From assembly GCA_017960905.1 (NCBI GenBank), contig JAGCYH010000045.1, positions 1-64,000 of the forward strand: a DNA stretch of 64,000 nt, given 5' to 3'. A model generated the notes under the pieces. The model was not told where the DNA came from and did no database searches. It was given only the letters and a program-made list of their open reading frames with translations. Positions 36,996 to 50,259 of this stretch are shown one piece after another; positions within the stretch are counted from its first letter, which is position 1, and the number at the start of each line of letters is the position of its first letter. Source of the stretch: Bacteroidales bacterium. Its GTDB lineage: Bacteria > Bacteroidota > Bacteroidia > Bacteroidales > Marinilabiliaceae. A program made the position numbers and the translations under genes.

Positions 36996-38260
36996 ACATC
37001 ACACGCAAAGACATAGAGATAATGGCGCCAGTAGGCTCGTACGAGTCGCTCATGGCGGCGATACAAGGCGGTGCCGACTCGGTTTACCTTGGTATAGAGC
37101 AACTTAACATGCGTTCGCGCTCGTCGAACAACTTCACGCGCGACGACTTGGCGAAAATTGTGGCCATTGCCCGCGAAAACAACATAAAAACCTATCTGAC
37201 AGTGAATACCGTCATCTACGATGACGAGATAGGACTCATGCACGAGATAATCGACGCCGCCAAGCAAAACGGCGTAACGGCCATCATCGCGTCGGATTTG
37301 GCCGCCATTCAGTATGCCAATCAGATTGGTGTCGAGGTGCACATCTCGACACAATGCAACATAAGCAACTTCGAGGCTGTGAGGTTTTTCAGCCAATACG
37401 CCGATGTGATGGTGCTTGCCCGCGAGCTCGACCTCGACAAAGTGAAACGCATTCACCATCAGATAATCGACAACGACATACGCGGGCCAAAGGGCAAACC
37501 CGTTGAAATAGAGATGTTTGCACACGGTGCACTCTGTATGGCCGTTTCGGGCAAATGCTACCTGAGTCTCAACACACTCAACGCCTCGGCCAACCGAGGC
37601 GCATGCCTGCAAGTGTGCAGGCGCAGCTACCTTGTCACCGACCGCGAGACAGGCAACGAACTCGAAGTCGACGGCAAATACATCATGTCGCCTAAAGACC
37701 TGAAAACCATCGACTTCATGGACCGCATGATAGACGCCGGCGTGCGAGTGTTCAAGATTGAAGGCAGAGCACGCTCTGCCGACTATGTGAAGACCGTTTG
37801 CGAATGCTACAGCGAAGCCGCCCAAGCCATTGCCGACGGCACTTTCGCAGCCAAAGGCCGCGGATATTGGGACGAACGACTCTCGCGAGTATTCAACCGC
37901 GGATTCTGGGACGGATACTATTTGGGCCAGAAATTGGGCGAATGGTCGGACAAATACGGCAATCTGGCCACCGAGAAAAAAGTGTACGTAGGCAAAGCCA
38001 ACAACTACTTCGGCAAAATAGGCGTCGGCGAGTTTTACCTCGAGACCGACGAACTGCACGTAGGCAACAAGATAATAATTATGGGGCCAAAAACTGGCGT
38101 AATAGAGCAGACTGTCAGCGAGTTGCGCGTTGACCTCAAGCCGACAGACAGCGTGCCGAAAGGCACGCTGTTCTCAATGCCGACCGTCGACAAGGTGCGC
38201 CGCAACGACAAACTATACGTCGTCCGCCCCGCCGAGAGCGTGAAAGACAACCAGAACTGA
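36992..38260 (+). CDS. U32 family peptidase / tRNA-hydroxylation protein family (TrhP-like)
   Basis: A 422-residue U32 family protein. Members once called collagenases (YegQ/TrhP, YrrN/O) are needed for 5-hydroxyuridine formation in tRNA; which role applies here is not visible. Family marks: MAPVGSYESLMAAIQGGADSVYLG near 10-33, the cysteine set FAHGALCMAVSGKCYLS...NRGACLQVCRRSY near 174-210, and YIMSPKDLKTIDFMDRMIDAGV near 229-250. It overlaps the sulfatase gene by 4 bases. Its last 20 codons form the left direct repeat of the adjacent island and recur at 46763 with mainly synonymous changes. Confidence 0.9.
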   Translation: MNITRKDIEIMAPVGSYESLMAAIQGGADSVYLGIEQLNMRSRSSNNFTRDDLAKIVAIARENNIKTYLTVNTVIYDDEIGLMHEIIDAAKQNGVTAIIASDLAAIQYANQIGVEVHISTQCNISNFEAVRFFSQYADVMVLARELDLDKVKRIHHQIIDNDIRGPKGKPVEIEMFAHGALCMAVSGKCYLSLNTLNASANRGACLQVCRRSYLVTDRETGNELEVDGKYIMSPKDLKTIDFMDRMIDAGVRVFKIEGRARSADYVKTVCECYSEAAQAIADGTFAAKGRGYWDERLSRVFNRGFWDGYYLGQKLGEWSDKYGNLATEKKVYVGKANNYFGKIGVGEFYLETDELHVGNKIIIMGPKTGVIEQTVSELRVDLKPTDSVPKGTLFSMPTVDKVRRNDKLYVVRPAESVKDNQN

Positions 38261-38273
38261 GGGAAGGGAACCT
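38199..38273 (+). repeat. Left direct repeat (attL-like) of the genomic island
   Basis: 75 bases covering the last 20 codons of the U32 gene and 13 bases beyond. The same sequence, with a handful of differences, is at 46763-46838. Encoded end: NDKLYVVRPAESVKDNQN. Confidence 0.8.
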
Positions 38274-38310
38274 GCTGTAATTGAACAAATTACAGCAGGT
38301 TTTGTTTTTT
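38271..38310 (+). terminator. Terminator of the porQ-U32 operon
   Basis: CCTGCTGTAATT pairs with AATTACAGCAGG (5-base loop), followed by TTTTGTTTTTT. Begins inside the end of the left direct repeat. Confidence 0.85.
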
Positions 38311-38367
38311 GAAATTTATTTTCAAAAAAACGTTAATCTGTCTATTGATATTTCGGCCAAGGAACAT

Positions 38368-38456
38368 TAACTTTGCAATTGAACATTTGCAAAGCACTAT
38401 GTGCTTTGCCATGTGATAACATATGATAAAAAGCGTCGACTAACGCTTTGTTTTTT
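38368..38456 (+). ncRNA. Candidate small RNA at the left end of the island
   Basis: A -7 box TAACTTTG at 38368-38375, a perfect hairpin GCAAAGCAC / GTGCTTTGC at 38389-38409, and a terminator-like hairpin AAAGCGT / ACGCTTT at 38430-38449 with GTTTTTT. The transcript would be about 75 bases; no -33 TTTG was found. It matches no family I know. Confidence 0.45.
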
Positions 38457-38510
38457 GGTGTTCCGAATTCTACCACAATTTTGAACACTCGCCAAGAACA
38501 ATGCAGATGT

Positions 38511-38701
38511 TGATGCCACGGTTGCGATTATCGTAGCCTTTTCGTGGTGTGCAGCAGGCATAACTGCCTTATGCTGCGCACCTTGCGAAAGGTCTGATTT
38601 ATAGCAACAGCGCGTGGTGTCTCTCTGTCTGTTTGCGAGTGTGGGCTGTGGTAGGTCCCGGGACACGAACAGGCAAATAACGGAGACCCACGCGCTTTTT
38701 T
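38511..38701 (+). ncRNA. Highly structured non-coding segment upstream of the helicase
   Basis: Three successive hairpins. 38516-38547: outer CCACG / CGTGG with an inner 7-8 bp stem. 38546-38582: GGTGTGCAGCA / TGCTGCGCACC with inner GGCA / TGCC. 38609-38696: AGCGCGTGG / CCACGCGCT plus TCTC / GAGA and inner pairs, followed by six Ts, a good intrinsic terminator. It is either one terminated RNA or a long leader with an attenuator 67 bases before the helicase ATG. No RNase P, tmRNA or SRP signature is present. Confidence 0.5.
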
Positions 38702-38763
38702 GTAAACAAAAAAAAATCCTACGAGTCGGAAGCGGGTCTGGTGTAGGGCAAAACAGACAGACT

Positions 38764-41700
38764 ATGCTCATCGACAACAAAATTGACCGTTATCCCGAAG
38801 ACGGTCTTGGGATTAAAAGCGTTTGGGATTTTATCCGTTATTACACCAGCCCCGACAAAGGGCGCGAAGGCGCACTTGACATTGTAACCGGTTTCTTTTC
38901 GGTAGCTGGACTAAGCGCGCTACAAAACGAACTATCTACCAACAACGCATATAGGCTTATCCTGGCCGAGATGGTCAGTGGCGATGATTTTAAAAGCAAA
39001 GTGATTGATTTGTTACAAGGTGATAGTAGTATTGAAAACGCACTACGGCTATCGGAATATTCGCAAAACGCACTTGCGTTCCTGAAACACAACACTGTAC
39101 AAGTCAAGGCGATAACGAATGCATTCTGCCACGCCAAAACATACATTTTCAAAGACTATTCAGACCCTGCGCACCATTATTATCTGACAGGAAGTTCGAA
39201 CCTGACCGATGCAGGATTGGGGCGAAAACCATCTTCGAATGCAGAACTTAACCTTGCCGAGACAGGCAATGGCGACACTTATAAAAAACATAAAGACTGG
39301 TTTGCCGACCAATGGGAGAACGTGGCACAACAGAAGATTTTGTCGGACCCGACAAACCCAAAATCGGAAAAAATAGACGTAAAGCAATACTTTATCGATA
39401 TGATTTCGCAGGCATTTAAAGTTCATACGCCCGAAGAAATATATTACAAGATATTGTTTGAACTGTTCCAGACCGAAATAGACTTCGACACGTCGCTTGA
39501 GCACGAGAGAGAGATGACGCTGCTACAAGATTCGGAAATATACCGCACGCTGTTCAACTACCAAAAGAGCGGTGTAGTGTCGCTTATAAAGATGCTACGC
39601 AAGTGGAATGGCGCCATACTGGCCGATGCTGTGGGCTTGGGCAAAACGTTTTCGGCGCTTGCAGTGATGAAATATTATCAGAACAATGGCTATACAGTAC
39701 TGCTACTCTGCCCTAAAAAGTTGGAATACAACTGGAAACAATATTTGAAACGTAGCGAATCGCGCTTCGAACGCGACGCGTTCGATTACATTGTGCGATT
39801 CCACACCGACCTGCAAGATGACCGACTCGAAAATGCATACACCGACGCAAAACTCAGCTACCTATGCCGTCAGCAGAAACTGCTTGTGGTAATCGACGAG
39901 AGCCACAACCTGCGCAACGCCGACTCGGAACGATATAAAACACTGATGAACAAGCTGTTGGCCGACAACGGAACAGAACGCGATGTAAAAGTTCTTCTGC
40001 TTTCGGCTACACCGATAAACAATGGTCTGACAGACATACGCAACCAATTCAATATCATTGCAAAAGGCGATGACGGATACTTCAATAATGATGACTTTGA
40101 GGTGAAATCGCTTATGGAACTATTCCGCGAAGCGCAAAGGAAATACAACGAATGGAGTGAAGATGAAAGCCGAAAATTGTCGGATTTTGTGGGCATGCTG
40201 CCTCAACACTTCTTTGGTCTTACCGACAGATTGATAGTTGCGCGTACGCGCAACTTGATAGAACGCACCTTGGGCGAAGACTTGCAATTTCCACGCAAAC
40301 GAAAGCCGCAAAACATATACAAAGGTGTGAGTGCGATAGGCAAATACAAAAACGCCAGAGCGTTGTACGACGCTCTGACCGATTTGAAGCTAACGGCTTA
40401 TCAACCAACAAAATACATAAACGGCGAAGAGACTGCCAAAGACTGGCAAGACGATCGTTTCCGTGAAAAATACTTGGTGAAAATGATGACCATACTGTTC
40501 ATGAAACGATTGGAAAGTTCGTGGTACTCGTGCAAGCTGACAATAGAAAAAGTGCTCGAAGTGCATAAGCGAACACTCAATATGGTTAAAAGATATTTAG
40601 AAACGAAAGACGAGACCTCCATAAATTTCGAGATTGACGATATGGATGAACTCGACGACGAATACTCTCTGCGCGGTAACGCCATCCGACTATCAGATAT
40701 GAAACTGATAGACAGGTTTGAATCCGACTTGGAGTACGACGTGAAGAGTTTGCAAGCCATAGCCGACTGCTTTTCGGATTTTGCAAAAAAATTGGAAAGC
40801 GGCAAAGTAACCGACCAAAAGATGGACACATTGGCGGAATTAGTAAAAGGAAAATCGGCCGAAAGGAATCCTAAAGTGGTTATTTTCACCACTTTTACCG
40901 ACACTGCACAATACATATACGACAAGCTGCAAGAACGAGGAATAGAGAGGATTGCGTGCGTTACAGGCGAAATTTCGACATATCCCGACGGCAAACAGAC
41001 GCAAAACTTCACCGACATTCTGCAACGGTTTGCGCCATACAGCAAACTATACAAAGAGAAAGACTGGAGTACGCTGTACGAGGCACATCTGACGCGCGAA
41101 AAATACAATGAGCAAACACGGCAATGGGACGTGGATTACGCTGAATGGCAGCAACTTATAAACAGCGACAGAAGATACGCAAAGACTGCTGAAATATTGA
41201 AAGAACAGATAGACGTACTTGTGGCCACAGACTGCTTGAGCGAAGGACAGAACTTGCAAGACGCCGACATGGTGGTAAACTTCGACATACACTGGAATCC
41301 GGTCAGGCTCATACAACGGTTCGGACGTATTGACCGTATCGGCTCGCCAAACGAAGAAGTTCAAAGCGTAAACTTCTGGCCTACAGAGAATTTGGACGCA
41401 TTCATCGACTTGACGAACCGCATCAACAACCGCATGGCCACGATGCTGACAGCTGGCACTGAAACCATTGAAACGACAGAGAAATACAGCAAAATAGTGG
41501 AAGAAAACCCACTATTCGAGAAAAACGCACAAAAACTGCTTCGGCAATTGGCAGAAGACTCAATATCAGACATAGAAAGTACCGACAGCGATGGACAAAA
41601 CCTCGGTATGCAAAACCTCTCGCTCGAAATGTTCCGCCAAGACCTGATCGACTACTTCGACCGCCACAAAGATATGTTCCGCAGTATGCCGTGCGGTGTG

Positions 41701-42147
41701 TTCAGCGGATTCAAGAATGCCGCCAAACAGTTTGCAAGTGTTCCCGAGAGCCTTGTGGCCGTATTGGGCTATCCGCACCGCGAGCATAAAAAAGAGAACT
41801 ACAAGCAGTTTTACCTTATGTGCCAGCCCGCCAATGGCGAGCCAGCCGATTGGCACGAAATGAACCGCGCGGAAATACTCAATATGCTGCGTGTCAACAA
41901 AAACGAGCCGACGTTTTTGCCCGAATGGATAGAACGGCCTGACACACAAAAGGTGCAACGACTATCGGGGATACTGAAAGAGTGGCTCAGGGTACAAATG
42001 CCACAAGAGACTAAAACATTGGCTCACAATATTTTGCGCGGCAACAAAAACGCAACCGACAACAACGGGCAAACCATTGAACAGAAGTTTAATCTTGAAA
42101 ACTTCGACCTCATAGCATGGGAATACATTTCAACCAAAAAAGACTGA
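38764..42147 (+). CDS. PLD nuclease-SNF2 helicase fusion of a restriction-like defence system
   Basis: A 1127-residue fusion. I start at the ATG at 38764, because the frame extending to 38614 passes through the terminator hairpin. Residues about 40-180 are a phospholipase D-type nuclease domain with HAKTY near 123 and GSSN near 142 (one HKD-like half). The SNF2 motor has QKSGVVSLI near 272, Walker A GLGKT near 292, Walker B VIDESHN near 377, motif III SATPINN near 415, and the C-terminal helicase lobe with [12 protein letters not shown] near 822 and [12 protein letters not shown] near 850. Probably it translocates on and cuts unmodified DNA. The methylase starts 5 bases after its stop, so the two form an operon. 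It lies inside the U32-flanked island. Confidence 0.87.
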
Positions 42148-45599: not shown

Positions 45600-45628
45600 A
45601 GCCGCTGGGCTAGTATGTAAGGCTGTAC

Positions 45629-45693
45629 CGCGACGAGTACGTCGCTCACTTCGACCGTTGCCGCTTGTCATGGTGCGCGACGTACTCGTCGCG
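45629..45693. repeat. REP-like inverted repeat upstream of the RAYT gene
   Basis: CGCGACGAGTACGTCGC at 45629-45645 and its exact reverse complement at 45677-45693, 31 bases apart; each arm also contains the internal palindrome GCGAC...GTCGC. Elements of this kind next to a RAYT gene are its usual substrates. Confidence 0.7.
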
Positions 45694-45740
45694 ATAATAC
45701 CGAAAACAGGCAGGAGTACTCTCAAAAACAAAAAAAAGTA

Positions 45741-45769: not shown

Positions 45770-46807
45770 ATGCCGAAAAACACCGACAAACGCTCTCTGC
45801 CCCGACAGCACAAACGCAGCCATTATCACAACTACCGCAAGCGTAGTATCTATATGCTTACTTTGTGTACCGAGGGCCGTCTGCCCATACTTGGTACTCT
45901 TTGTGGTGACAGCACCGAAACTGCGACCGTCCGCCCTACAGCATTGGGTGAAGAAGTATTGCGGTGTTGGAACAATATTCCTACAATTCAAAAGCATCTG
46001 GCGCAAAAGAAAACAGAACAGACAGGATTACCTTGCAACAGAGTCATATCACTATTAGACTGCCAACTTATGCCCGACCACTTTCACGGTATAATATTTA
46101 TTCACGAAGATATGGACATTGCCATTGGCGACGTAGTACGTGGCTTTATGGCAGGCTGTACAAAAGCCTACCACGCGACAATGCAACCATTGCCCGACAA
46201 TAAAATAAAGAGACCATTATGGGAGAAAGGTTACCACGACCGTATTCTCTGTCACGCCGGCCAACTCGACAACATGATTGCATACTTGCGCGATAACCCG
46301 CGCCGGCTTTGGCTTAAGAAAATGTTTCCGAACAACTTTGCAGTTCTGCGCAATGTGCAATATGGCAGTTATTGTTTCTCTTCGGTGGGGAATATTTGGT
46401 TGTTGGACTGCCCAATGCATGCTATACACGTCAGAAGCCGCTTTAGCGATGAAGAGAGCCGCCAATACATGAACGATTGCATCCGCGCCGCTCGTGGCGG
46501 CGAGGTTTTGGTTGGTGCGTTCATCAGTCCCAAAGAAAAACTGGTACTCGATGTCGCACTCAAAGAAAAACTGGCAGTAATCTGTTTGGTACCTTACAGT
46601 TTTTCAGAGTTTTATAAGCCTTCTGGCGCATACTCTGACGCATGCGCACAAGGCCTAATTCTGTTCCTTTCCGAAGCCTCAGACGAGAATCAGAACAAAC
46701 GTATCTCACGCCAAGAGTGCAACCATCTGAACACCATCGCTGAAAATTTGGCTGAAATATCTGCCGCAACGACAAACTATACGTCGTCCGTCCCGCCGAA
46801 ACCGTAA
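45770..46807 (+). mobile_element. REP-associated tyrosine transposase (RAYT, Y1/HUH family)
   Basis: A 345-residue single-strand transposase related to IS200/IS605. The basic start (RQHKRSHYHNYRKRSIYMLTL) leads into the Y1 domain with the HUH motif in LMPDHFHGIIFIHE (His near 104 and 106) and the catalytic Tyr in MIAYLRDNPRRLW near 172. The C-terminal extension (about 200-331) looks like a DprA/Rossmann-like fold and is common in Bacteroidota RAYTs. The last 14 residues (AATTNYTSSVPPKP) are encoded by the right direct repeat, so its original end seems to have been replaced at the island border. The REP-like repeat lies upstream. Confidence 0.85.
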
Positions 46808-46838
46808 AGGACAACCAGAACTGAGAGATAGGGAACCT
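46763..46838 (+). repeat. Right direct repeat (attR-like) of the genomic island
   Basis: Matches 38199-38273 with five substitutions in the coding part and one inserted base after the stop. In the U32 frame it still reads NDKLYVVRPAETVKDNQN and a stop, with most changes at third codon positions. It provides the stop codons of both the RAYT gene (46805-46807) and the XRE gene (its TAG begins within the last two bases). Confidence 0.8.
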
Positions 46839-47469: not shown

Positions 47470-50259
47470 ATGTCTGTATCGAAAGATATTGAAATAAAAA
47501 ACGCGAGAGTAAACAACCTGAAAGGTATCTCGCTCAACATTCCGCGCAACAAATTCATAGTAGTTACGGGCGTCAGCGGTTCGGGCAAGTCGTCGCTGGC
47601 TTTCGACACGCTGTATGCCGAGGGGCAGCGCCGCTATGTTGAAAGCCTCAACTCGTATGCGCGCCAGTTTCTGGGGCGCAACAACAAACCCGAAGTCGAT
47701 TACATAAAAAACATACCGCCGGCGATTGCCATCGAGCAGAAGGTGAACACCCGCAACCCGCGCTCGACAGTGGGCACATCGACCGAGGTCTACGACTATC
47801 TGAAACTGTTGTTTGCCCGTATCGGGCAAACGATTTCGCCAGTTTCGGGCAGCGTAGTAACACGCGACACGGTAACATCGATAACAAACTACATAACATC
47901 GCAGCCGCAGGGCACCAAAGCCGTCATTCTGACAGCCGTCGCCGGCGGCAGCGCCGCCGACTTGGCGAAACGCATCAAACTACTGTCGCAGCAAGGCTTC
48001 TCGCGAATAGAGAAAGACGGCGACTTCATCAGAATAGATGAAAAGACCGAAGTCGCTCTGGCCGGCGCCACGACAGCCAACTTAGTGATAGACCGTCTGA
48101 CGGCAAGCACCGAAGCCGACAACGTAACACGCACGGCCGACTCGGTCTCGACCGCCTTGTACGAAGGAGGCGGGAAGTGCATAGTGAGGATTTACGCTGC
48201 CGACGGCAGCTACACCGACCGTCATTTCTCCGACCGTTACGAAGCCGACGGCATGACCTTCGAAGAGCCTAACGAACAGCTCTTTACGTTCAACAGTCCG
48301 ATGGGTGCGTGCCCAACTTGCGAAGGATTCGGACGCATAATAGGCATCGACGAGGATTTGGTCATTCCGAACAAAAACAAAAGCATCTACGACGACTGCG
48401 TGGCGTGCTGGGTAGGACCTAAACTGAGCGAATGGAAGACAGCCTTCATGCGGGCTGTGAGCAAACTCAACTACCCTGTTCACACACCATACCGCGAACT
48501 CACTGACCGTCAGAAAGATATATTGTGGCACGGAAGTGCCACAATACCCAGCATCGATGAGTTTTTCGAATATGTGAAAGAACAGCAGTACAAGATACAG
48601 TACCGCGTCATTCTGGCGCGGTACAGAGGCAAGACAACCTGTCCCGACTGCCACGGCGGACGCCTGCGCAAAGAGGCAACATACGTGCAAATAAACGGCC
48701 GCAACATCGTTGAGCTTGTCAACATGCCAATATCAGACCTTAAGCAATGGTTTGATAATCTGACACTTAACGAATACGAGAGCAAAATAGCCGAACGTCT
48801 GCTCACCGAAATCAGAAGCCGTCTCAACTTCCTGTGCGAAGTAGGCCTCGACTATCTGACGCTCAACCGACTGTCGTCGACGTTATCGGGAGGCGAGAGT
48901 CAGCGAATCAACATAGCCACATCGCTCGGCAGCAGTTTGGTAGGTTCGCTCTACGTGCTCGACGAGCCTTCGATAGGACTGCATTCGCGTGATACAGAGA
49001 AACTTATATCGGTTCTTCAGAAACTGAAGAACATAGGCAACACGGTCGTCGTGGTGGAACACGACGAGGACATAATACGCGCTGCCGACGAGATAATAGA
49101 CATTGGCCCCGAAGCCGGCCGACTGGGCGGCAACGTGGTTTTCCAAGGCACTTTCGACGAGCTGAAAAGCAAGGGACAGAGCCTGACGGCCGACTACATC
49201 AGCGGGCGAAAGCGGATAGACGTTCCGCGCTCGCGCCGCACGTGGAACAAAAGCATCAGACTCACAGGCGTTTGCGAGAACAACCTGAAAAACATCGACG
49301 CTGAGATACCGCTCAACGTGATGACATTGGTAACGGGTGTGAGCGGTTCGGGCAAATCGACACTCATAACGCAAGTGCTTTATCCGGCGCTATGTAAGGC
49401 CAAAGGCCTTACATACGGCGAGCACACAGGTCAGTTTGGCGATATAAGCGGCGACCTGAAAAGCATAGGCAACATTGAGTTCATCGACCAGAACCCGATA
49501 GGCAAAAGTACCCGCTCGAATCCGGCCACGTACATCAAAGCCTACGACGAGATACGCAAGCTGATGAGCTCGCAGCAGCTCGCCAAGCAAAACGGATACA
49601 CGGCGGCGCATTTCTCGTTCAACACGCAAGGCGGACGTTGCGAAGCGTGCCAAGGCGAAGGCACGGTACGCATTGAGATGCAGTTTATGGCCGACATTGT
49701 GCTCGAATGCGAGCAATGCCACGGCAAACGCTTCAAAGACGAGATACTCGATGTGAAATATCGCGACCGCAACATCTTCGACATTCTGAATATGACTGTA
49801 AATCAAGCGATTGAGTTTTTCAGCGAAAGCACTGGCAATACCGAAAAACGCATCGTTCAGCGACTAAAACCCATTCAGGACGTTGGATTGGGATATATCA
49901 AGATGGGACAATCGTCGAGCACGCTGAGCGGTGGCGAAAGCCAACGCATCAAACTGGCGTCGTTTCTGGCCGACGAGCAATCGTCGCCAACGTTGTTCAT
50001 CTTCGACGAACCGACGACAGGTTTGCATTTCAACGACATAAAAAAACTCATGGCAGCCTTCGACTCGCTAATACAACGAGGCCACAGCCTCGTTATCATC
50101 GAGCACAACATGGATGTGATAAAATGCGCCGACTGGATTATCGACCTTGGTCCCGAAGGCGGCGAGCAAGGCGGCTACATAGTTGCCGCCGGCACGCCCG
50201 AAGAGATAGTGAAATGCGAGAAATCGTACACAGGGAAATACCTGAAGGCTTATTTGTAA
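47470..50259 (+). CDS. uvrA: Excinuclease ABC subunit A
   Basis: A 929-residue damage-recognition ATPase of nucleotide excision repair. Two ABC ATPase halves are seen: first Walker [11 protein letters not shown] near 33 with signature LSGGESQRI near 475, second GVSGSGKST near 622 with signature [12 protein letters not shown] near 820. Zinc modules: CPTCEGFG near 279, CPDCHGGRL near 393, and CEACQGEG...CEQCHGKRF near 725-755. The DNA-binding insertion and [18 protein letters not shown]-type segment are present. Length is normal for UvrA (about 940). It has its own promoter and is divergent from the XRE gene. Confidence 0.97.

Follow-up and report, generated by a model that had tools for sequence, protein, structure and literature searches.

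An apparently new family of structured leader RNAs in the Bacteroidales, found ahead of a helicase operon

In a 64,000-nucleotide stretch of a Bacteroidales contig (called "the window" throughout, meaning the whole of that stretch), a structured and apparently non-coding region lies between the terminator of a U32 gene (38267–38303) and a PLD/SNF2 helicase gene (38764–42147, on the forward strand, like the leader features and flanking repeats below). What is made from this region, and which genes does it serve? An earlier note, written from the sequence alone, offered one or two small RNAs of a defence island or a leader controlling the helicase. The second option is the better supported of the two, although not in its helicase-specific form. 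We put at roughly 60% the probability that the helicase operon has its 5' leader at positions 38381–38763, and that this leader is a portable, cis-acting attenuator of an order-wide RNA family. The family itself is real, strongly conserved and apparently undescribed.

The leader at the helicase locus

The elements listed in the earlier note (a promoter-like box, a perfect 9-bp hairpin, a hairpin with a T-run, further hairpins, and a long hairpin followed by Ts) are all found in the sequence. The structured region is real but had been drawn too small, at 38368–38701; its promoter begins at about 38344 and the leader reaches the helicase ATG at 38764, a start that is backed by the matching N-termini of homologues. 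Bacteroidetes promoters have a -33/-7 consensus, and the promoter of this type read from the sequence (38344–38375; TTG ... TAACTTTG) has its -7 box, TAACTTTG, at 38368–38375 and the TTG about 20 nucleotides farther upstream. From this promoter a structured leader RNA (38381–38763) runs to the helicase start codon. At a predicted folding energy of -151 kcal/mol, 38377–38763 is more stable than every one of 100 dinucleotide shuffles, whose energies are -109.7 ± 5.2 (z -8.0).

Relatives are labelled below by locus (L numbers) and genome (G numbers). Near the expected transcript start is P1 (38389–38409), the perfect 9-bp hairpin of the predicted fold; loci L055 and L060 have a hairpin of different sequence at this position. 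The P2 domain follows, with strand 1 as its 5' arm (38418–38469), loop L2 (CUACCAC, 38470–38476) and strand 2 as its 3' arm (38478–38518). Further hairpins are read in the sequence at about 38521–38582, with the P4 hairpin at 38546–38582, and P5, a terminator-like hairpin with its T-tract, occupies 38609–38701; its 5' and 3' arms are strands 3 and 4, and its loop L5 (GUGGUAG, 38648–38654) is complementary to L2. The hairpin with a T-run at 38430–38456 lies within strand 1. It is present in the window, but it is not a conserved terminator: its site in the relatives forms the 5' side of a larger domain, mostly with no T-run behind it. P6 (38718–38747), between terminator and start codon, is a candidate hairpin read from the sequence; similar hairpins occur in relatives but do not align, and the predicted folds of some copies lack it. 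In addition, 11 nucleotides of the 5' arm of P5 (38624–38634) are perfectly complementary to 38751–38761, just before the helicase start codon, a match that could mask the start of helicase translation.

Relatives in the genus and the order

The statement that no known RNA signature fits has held up. Rfam 15 covariance models at the gathering threshold gave no match in the window and none on the RNA in 40 related loci; among 20 genus loci only TPP matched, far from the RNA, and in 20 order loci tRNA, SRP RNA and abiF matched elsewhere. The known riboswitch classes in Rfam likewise gave no match on the RNA. A permissive Rfam search of the stretch returned only matches far below the curated scores, and a tRNA search found none in it.

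Relatives were not to be found by gene position or by plain similarity within the genus. The site downstream of the U32 gene was rejected as a conserved setting, 12 orthologous U32 loci of the genus carrying other sequence there, and in a plain DNA search of the genus the window was the sole match. The same kind of search of 71 genomes of the family gave 15 at E ≤ 0.1 (the window's own genome counted). Four of the weak matches were inspected; the RNA is absent from L054 and L062, and L055 (G009) and L060 (G011) are full-length relatives from the same genus in other gene settings. A three-sequence comparison has 114 predicted pairs, 29 of them with two-sided changes.

Three covariance models extended the family. 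R1 (P4 and P5 only, 3 sequences) matched 14 of the 71 genomes of the family at E ≤ 1, and 12 of these belong to the genus. R2 (16 sequences), run on 393 genomes of the order, matched 74 at E ≤ 0.01 and, as counted among the matches listed, 25 at E ≤ 1e-5; its E-values are rough, and the weakest of these matches may be due to chance. With R3 (32 sequences) 12 of 15 genus genomes matched at E ≤ 1e-4, and there were six matches in the window's own genome; the RNA is frequently present in several copies per genome. At E ≤ 1e-5, R3 matched 7 of 395 genomes of the class, all seven of which belong to the Bacteroidales, the window's own order. A pattern search of genome contigs found nine stretches, all in Bacteroidales metagenome-assembled genomes from horse faeces and of the window's genus. 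These results point to an order-wide family of structured RNAs in the Bacteroidales that is apparently new and absent from Rfam. The literature search, in the parts of papers that it covered, held no description of this RNA; a 2024 study reportedly deals with Bacteroides capsule leaders and UpxY, and it was not among the results.

The helicase, on the other hand, does not define the family. The earlier note had named beforehand, as its refuting outcome, a lack of conservation upstream of homologous helicases, and R3 found the RNA at none of 16 such loci, so the RNA is not tied to the helicase. A helicase-specific leader was rejected also on inspection of 12 sequences, in which homologues from the order (40–47% identity) share the N-terminus but lack the leader; a search of genome contigs returned no helicase. 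Since the leader is absent there yet real elsewhere, a test built on the helicase would discard a genuine element. Its assignment to this defence island did not survive either, as other copies lie ahead of many unrelated genes elsewhere in the order.

We viewed 59 loci with their flanks (the window, 18 genus loci and 40 order loci). The quantitative tests below use 55 of them, omitting L104, whose core is identical to that of L103; L163, which nearly duplicates L162; L109, which consists mostly of the P5 part; and L189, which falls below the R2 cut-off. The 40 loci from the order were drawn from the better model matches, so the fractions given describe good matches rather than all.

Covariation, a drifting loop pair and two pairing schemes

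The homologues of the leader show the covariation that the earlier note had proposed to look for. In alignment A8 (32 sequences) 91.3% of the cells are standard pairs, a share that falls to 36–53% in slid versions of the alignment, and two-sided changes occur in 41 of the 47 P4/P5 pairs, which is strong covariation support; these alignments lean towards the model because they were fitted to it. The support includes helices 1 and 2, which make up P4 (14 of 16 pairs with two-sided changes), and the stem that closes L5 (GGY/RCC, helix 8). Altogether 264 cells have two-sided changes against 82.3 ± 8.8 in shuffles, with none of 500 shuffles reaching 264. P4/P5 covariation was also examined in a 16-sequence alignment. 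In the P4/P5 helix cells G-U outnumbers A-C by 218 to 29, which, with an aligner that somewhat favours G-U, argues for an RNA of this strand; the 2:3 pairing has no such asymmetry (8 G-U and 10 A-C).

The complementarity of L2 and L5 is kept while its sequence drifts. A Watson-Crick run of at least 7 between the P2 region and the P5 loop is present in 52 of the 55 copies; the mean run is 7.51, against 4.54 with swapped partners, and the sum over copies is 413, against 252.8 ± 9.4 on permutation (the maximum of 10,000 permutations being 296). The P2 domain lies outside every search model, so the way in which the loci were found has no bearing on this test. There are 21 distinct leading 6-mers, one of them clipped by the edge of the search window, and individual copies have L2/L5 pairs such as CTACCAC/GTGGTAG, CTAGCAC/GTGCTAG, CGTAGGAA/TTCCTACG, CTTCGCA/TGCGAAG and TCTGGAC/GTCCAGA. 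This is an unusually clean natural case of complementarity conserved without conservation of sequence.

The arms of P2 and P5 can pair in more than one way. In swap tests, in which each copy's own partner strand is compared with partners from other copies, pairing 1:4 (z -24.6) and pairing 2:3 (z -21.2) are supported by the 14–18 nucleotides adjoining the loops; there 1:2 has hardly any support (z -4.0) and 3:4 none (z +2.5). Farther from the loops all four are supported (1:2, z -6.9; 3:4, z -11.8; 1:4, z -6.1; 2:3, z -11.7), and the control pairings 1:3 and 2:4 gave no signal in either part. Strand 1 therefore pairs by these tests with strand 2 or 4, and strand 2 with strand 1 or 3. With all four pairings supported, both a rod (1:4, 2:3 and the loop–loop pair) and a pair of hairpins (1:2 and 3:4) are maintained; the four are not fully independent, because conservation of three makes the fourth partly follow. 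The two schemes exclude each other: one gives two hairpins, with the terminator-like one second, and the other gives one long rod. At predicted equilibrium 2:3 is favoured in all 55 copies as long as strand 4 is still missing, and the full-length RNA favours the rod in 50 of 55.

In trp-type attenuators 1:2 and 3:4 compete with 2:3. This RNA likewise has the arrangement by which an attenuator leader is recognised, namely four strands in which 1:2 and 3:4 exclude 2:3, then a T-tract, upstream of a gene. Unlike the trp type it adds the loop–loop pair and the 1:4 rod, and it is not bound to one pathway. By eye, a minimal leader peptide (ATG GCG CTA stop) is seen in most close relatives and is not seen in several wider ones, so that no conserved leader peptide was recognised by eye in the wider family. 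Across L099–L107 this short frame stands at the start of strand 1 in most, with all three stop codons occurring; that of L100 is longer.

Both schemes leave a stem directly before the T-tract, so a simple picture in which the rod is the antiterminator is incomplete, and the switch may depend on co-transcriptional timing or on a bound factor. The same feature would suit an unregulated insulator, a strong constitutive terminator that damps transcription arriving from upstream or initiated ahead of acquired genes, as would cargo so mixed that no single metabolite is indicated (see below). A plain terminator, however, needs neither a partner domain more than 100 nucleotides upstream nor a loop pair that drifts and stays matched, and we hold this explanation to be very improbable.

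Gene setting, cargo and movement of the leader

An ATG-initiated open reading frame of at least 60 amino acids begins on the same strand 20–120 nucleotides downstream in 48 of the 55 copies (9 of 55 in the divergent control); the other seven have no such start in that interval. Upstream, 40 of 55 copies have the promoter box TAnnTTTG, where mononucleotide shuffles predict 4.7, and P5 ends in a T-rich tract in 54 of 55. A promoter box between T-tract and gene occurs in 1 of the 48, where 1.5 are expected. This spacing bears on whether the unit could instead be a free-standing small RNA of about 320 nucleotides that ends at P5 and acts in trans, the neighbouring gene being read by readthrough or incidental. 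Promoter box and terminator-like end do delimit a self-contained unit, and identical cores with different flanks exist; the co-directional gene starting so close by, with no promoter box between, and the presence in a genome of several copies that differ in their loops and have unrelated cargo, suit a cis role better, and we consider a trans-acting RNA unlikely. The preferred reading remains that the RNA probably controls transcription of the genes behind it. Type III toxin-antitoxin, retron and tracrRNA readings were set aside for lack of a fitting partner gene.

The genes behind the leader are very mixed. In the window they are the PLD/SNF2 helicase and an Eco57I-type methylase of a defence operon, at L110 BrxP and BrxC of BREX, and at other loci a TdeIII endonuclease with methylase (L172), a type III methylase (L179) and a C5 methylase (L162). 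Elsewhere there are BspA-type LRR, fimbrillin-like, FGE-sulfatase-trypsin and peptidase C10 proteins, radical-SAM enzymes with a Cys-rich target peptide, and Sel1 and WG repeat proteins. Several first genes have no family match. Those of L170, L178 and L187 encode related small proteins of 68–74 amino acids (MGIHIGE...-like), without a family match where searched. Such a mixture indicates no candidate ligand. In gut Bacteroidales the genes behind members of the family thus include defence systems, capsule regulators and surface genes.

At two loci, L182 and L185, the first gene after the leader encodes an UpxY antiterminator (above the NCBIfam cut-off); the other first genes with family matches are of other kinds. 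UpxY is described in Bacteroides as preventing premature termination in 5' leaders upstream of upxY; the UpxY capsule leaders are likewise Bacteroidales 5' leaders that terminate early ahead of accessory operons (PMC7819879), and we count the two loci for the attenuator reading; most copies of the present RNA precede other genes. LoaP acts through a leader hairpin, and its leaders, as described, also have a folded element before an intrinsic terminator and a large operon; the LoaP element is a small UNCG hairpin, whereas here the whole leader fold is about 290 nucleotides, with no dedicated protein known (PMC12691694). A NusG paralogue as general partner is not supported in the genus, because counts of NusG domains do not track those of leaders: G002, G004 and G013 have a NusG match and no leader, G009 has many leaders and one match, G003 and G001 also have leaders with one match each, and G010 and G012 have leaders with none, some of these genomes being incomplete.

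Large folded bacterial RNAs such as OLE, GOLLD and ROOL use kissing loops. The present RNA is shorter than these, stands in a gene-leader position and has no Rfam match; the function of all three is given as unknown (PMC12286853). Bacteroidales-1, Bacteroides-1, Bacteroides-2 and Bacteroid-trp are candidate structured RNAs reported from the same bacteria (PMC2864571); those of them in Rfam do not match here, and Bacteroides-2 has no Rfam number in the table of that report.

On the attenuator reading, transcription would start at the promoter and most of it would end at P5; a signal or factor would bias the competition between the hairpins and 2:3, and so set how much polymerase reads through into the operon. 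Termination, readthrough and signal at the leader are what we infer from this architecture. As the module is common to unrelated operons and species irrespective of cargo, its effect is probably to keep the expression of acquired, costly genes under a shared restraint. If the RNA does gate transcription, there would be one common handle on how these bacteria silence or activate acquired operons, and the question of silent defence islands would become directly testable.

The leader also appears to travel. In most comparisons between copies, similarity begins in the promoter region and gives out at about the start codon; exceptions such as L162/L163 and L099/L104 have cargo in common. L113, from the window's genus, and L154, from another GTDB family, have different cargo and are identical over 266 nucleotides that begin where strand 1 begins and reach the T-tract. 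A single genome contains L103 and L104, whose flanks have diverged and which are identical over 336 nucleotides, from close to the expected transcription start as far as the terminator end. G009 contains one identical pair of copies. In the window, two direct copies of 76 nucleotides from the 3' end of the U32 peptidase gene (38199–38274 and 46763–46838, 91% identical) lie 8.56 kb apart, on either side of the leader, helicase, methylase and transposase genes, which marks this unit as a bounded insertion. Flanking repeats were not found around most other copies within the flanks examined.

Identical tracts that stop at the element borders, similarity that mostly ends at promoter and start codon, and direct repeats around the window unit and that of L106 would all fit an element that acts as DNA, a long imperfect palindrome moving or recombining as a cassette with no RNA role. 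It is nevertheless quite unlikely: the excess of G-U over A-C in the helices (allowing for the aligner) speaks against it, and so does the conservation of the promoter box, the T-tract and the spacing to the gene; mobile-element searches were empty (viral contigs gave no match to the pattern or the helicase, and plasmid and phage searches none to the window leader or L154). A more tentative extension of the attenuator reading, which we regard as possible though doubtful, is that promoter, kissing-loop/rod leader and terminator form a self-contained module exchanged horizontally as a unit between loci and species, perhaps copied from its own transcript, so that one common RNA-level gate stands over unrelated acquired operons with a loop pair of its own in each copy. 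A REP/RAYT or MITE element was rejected: a DNA search of the genome with the P5 part found no further copy, and the copies within a genome differ in sequence and loops.

Several minor features accompany these units. The L106 leader and its LRR cargo are flanked by a 305-nucleotide direct repeat (93%) with ends near TACGT. In the window, a transposase-like open reading frame runs into the right copy of the U32-end repeat. For the Y1-transposase-like (RAYT-like) gene at 45770 the genome contains a single, weaker homologue, and between it and the methylase lies an inverted repeat with 24-nucleotide arms (45626–45696), terminator-like or REP-like. Just outside the island is a UvrA-like ABC ATPase gene (47470–50259) with a strong match to the PADLOC model mad3.
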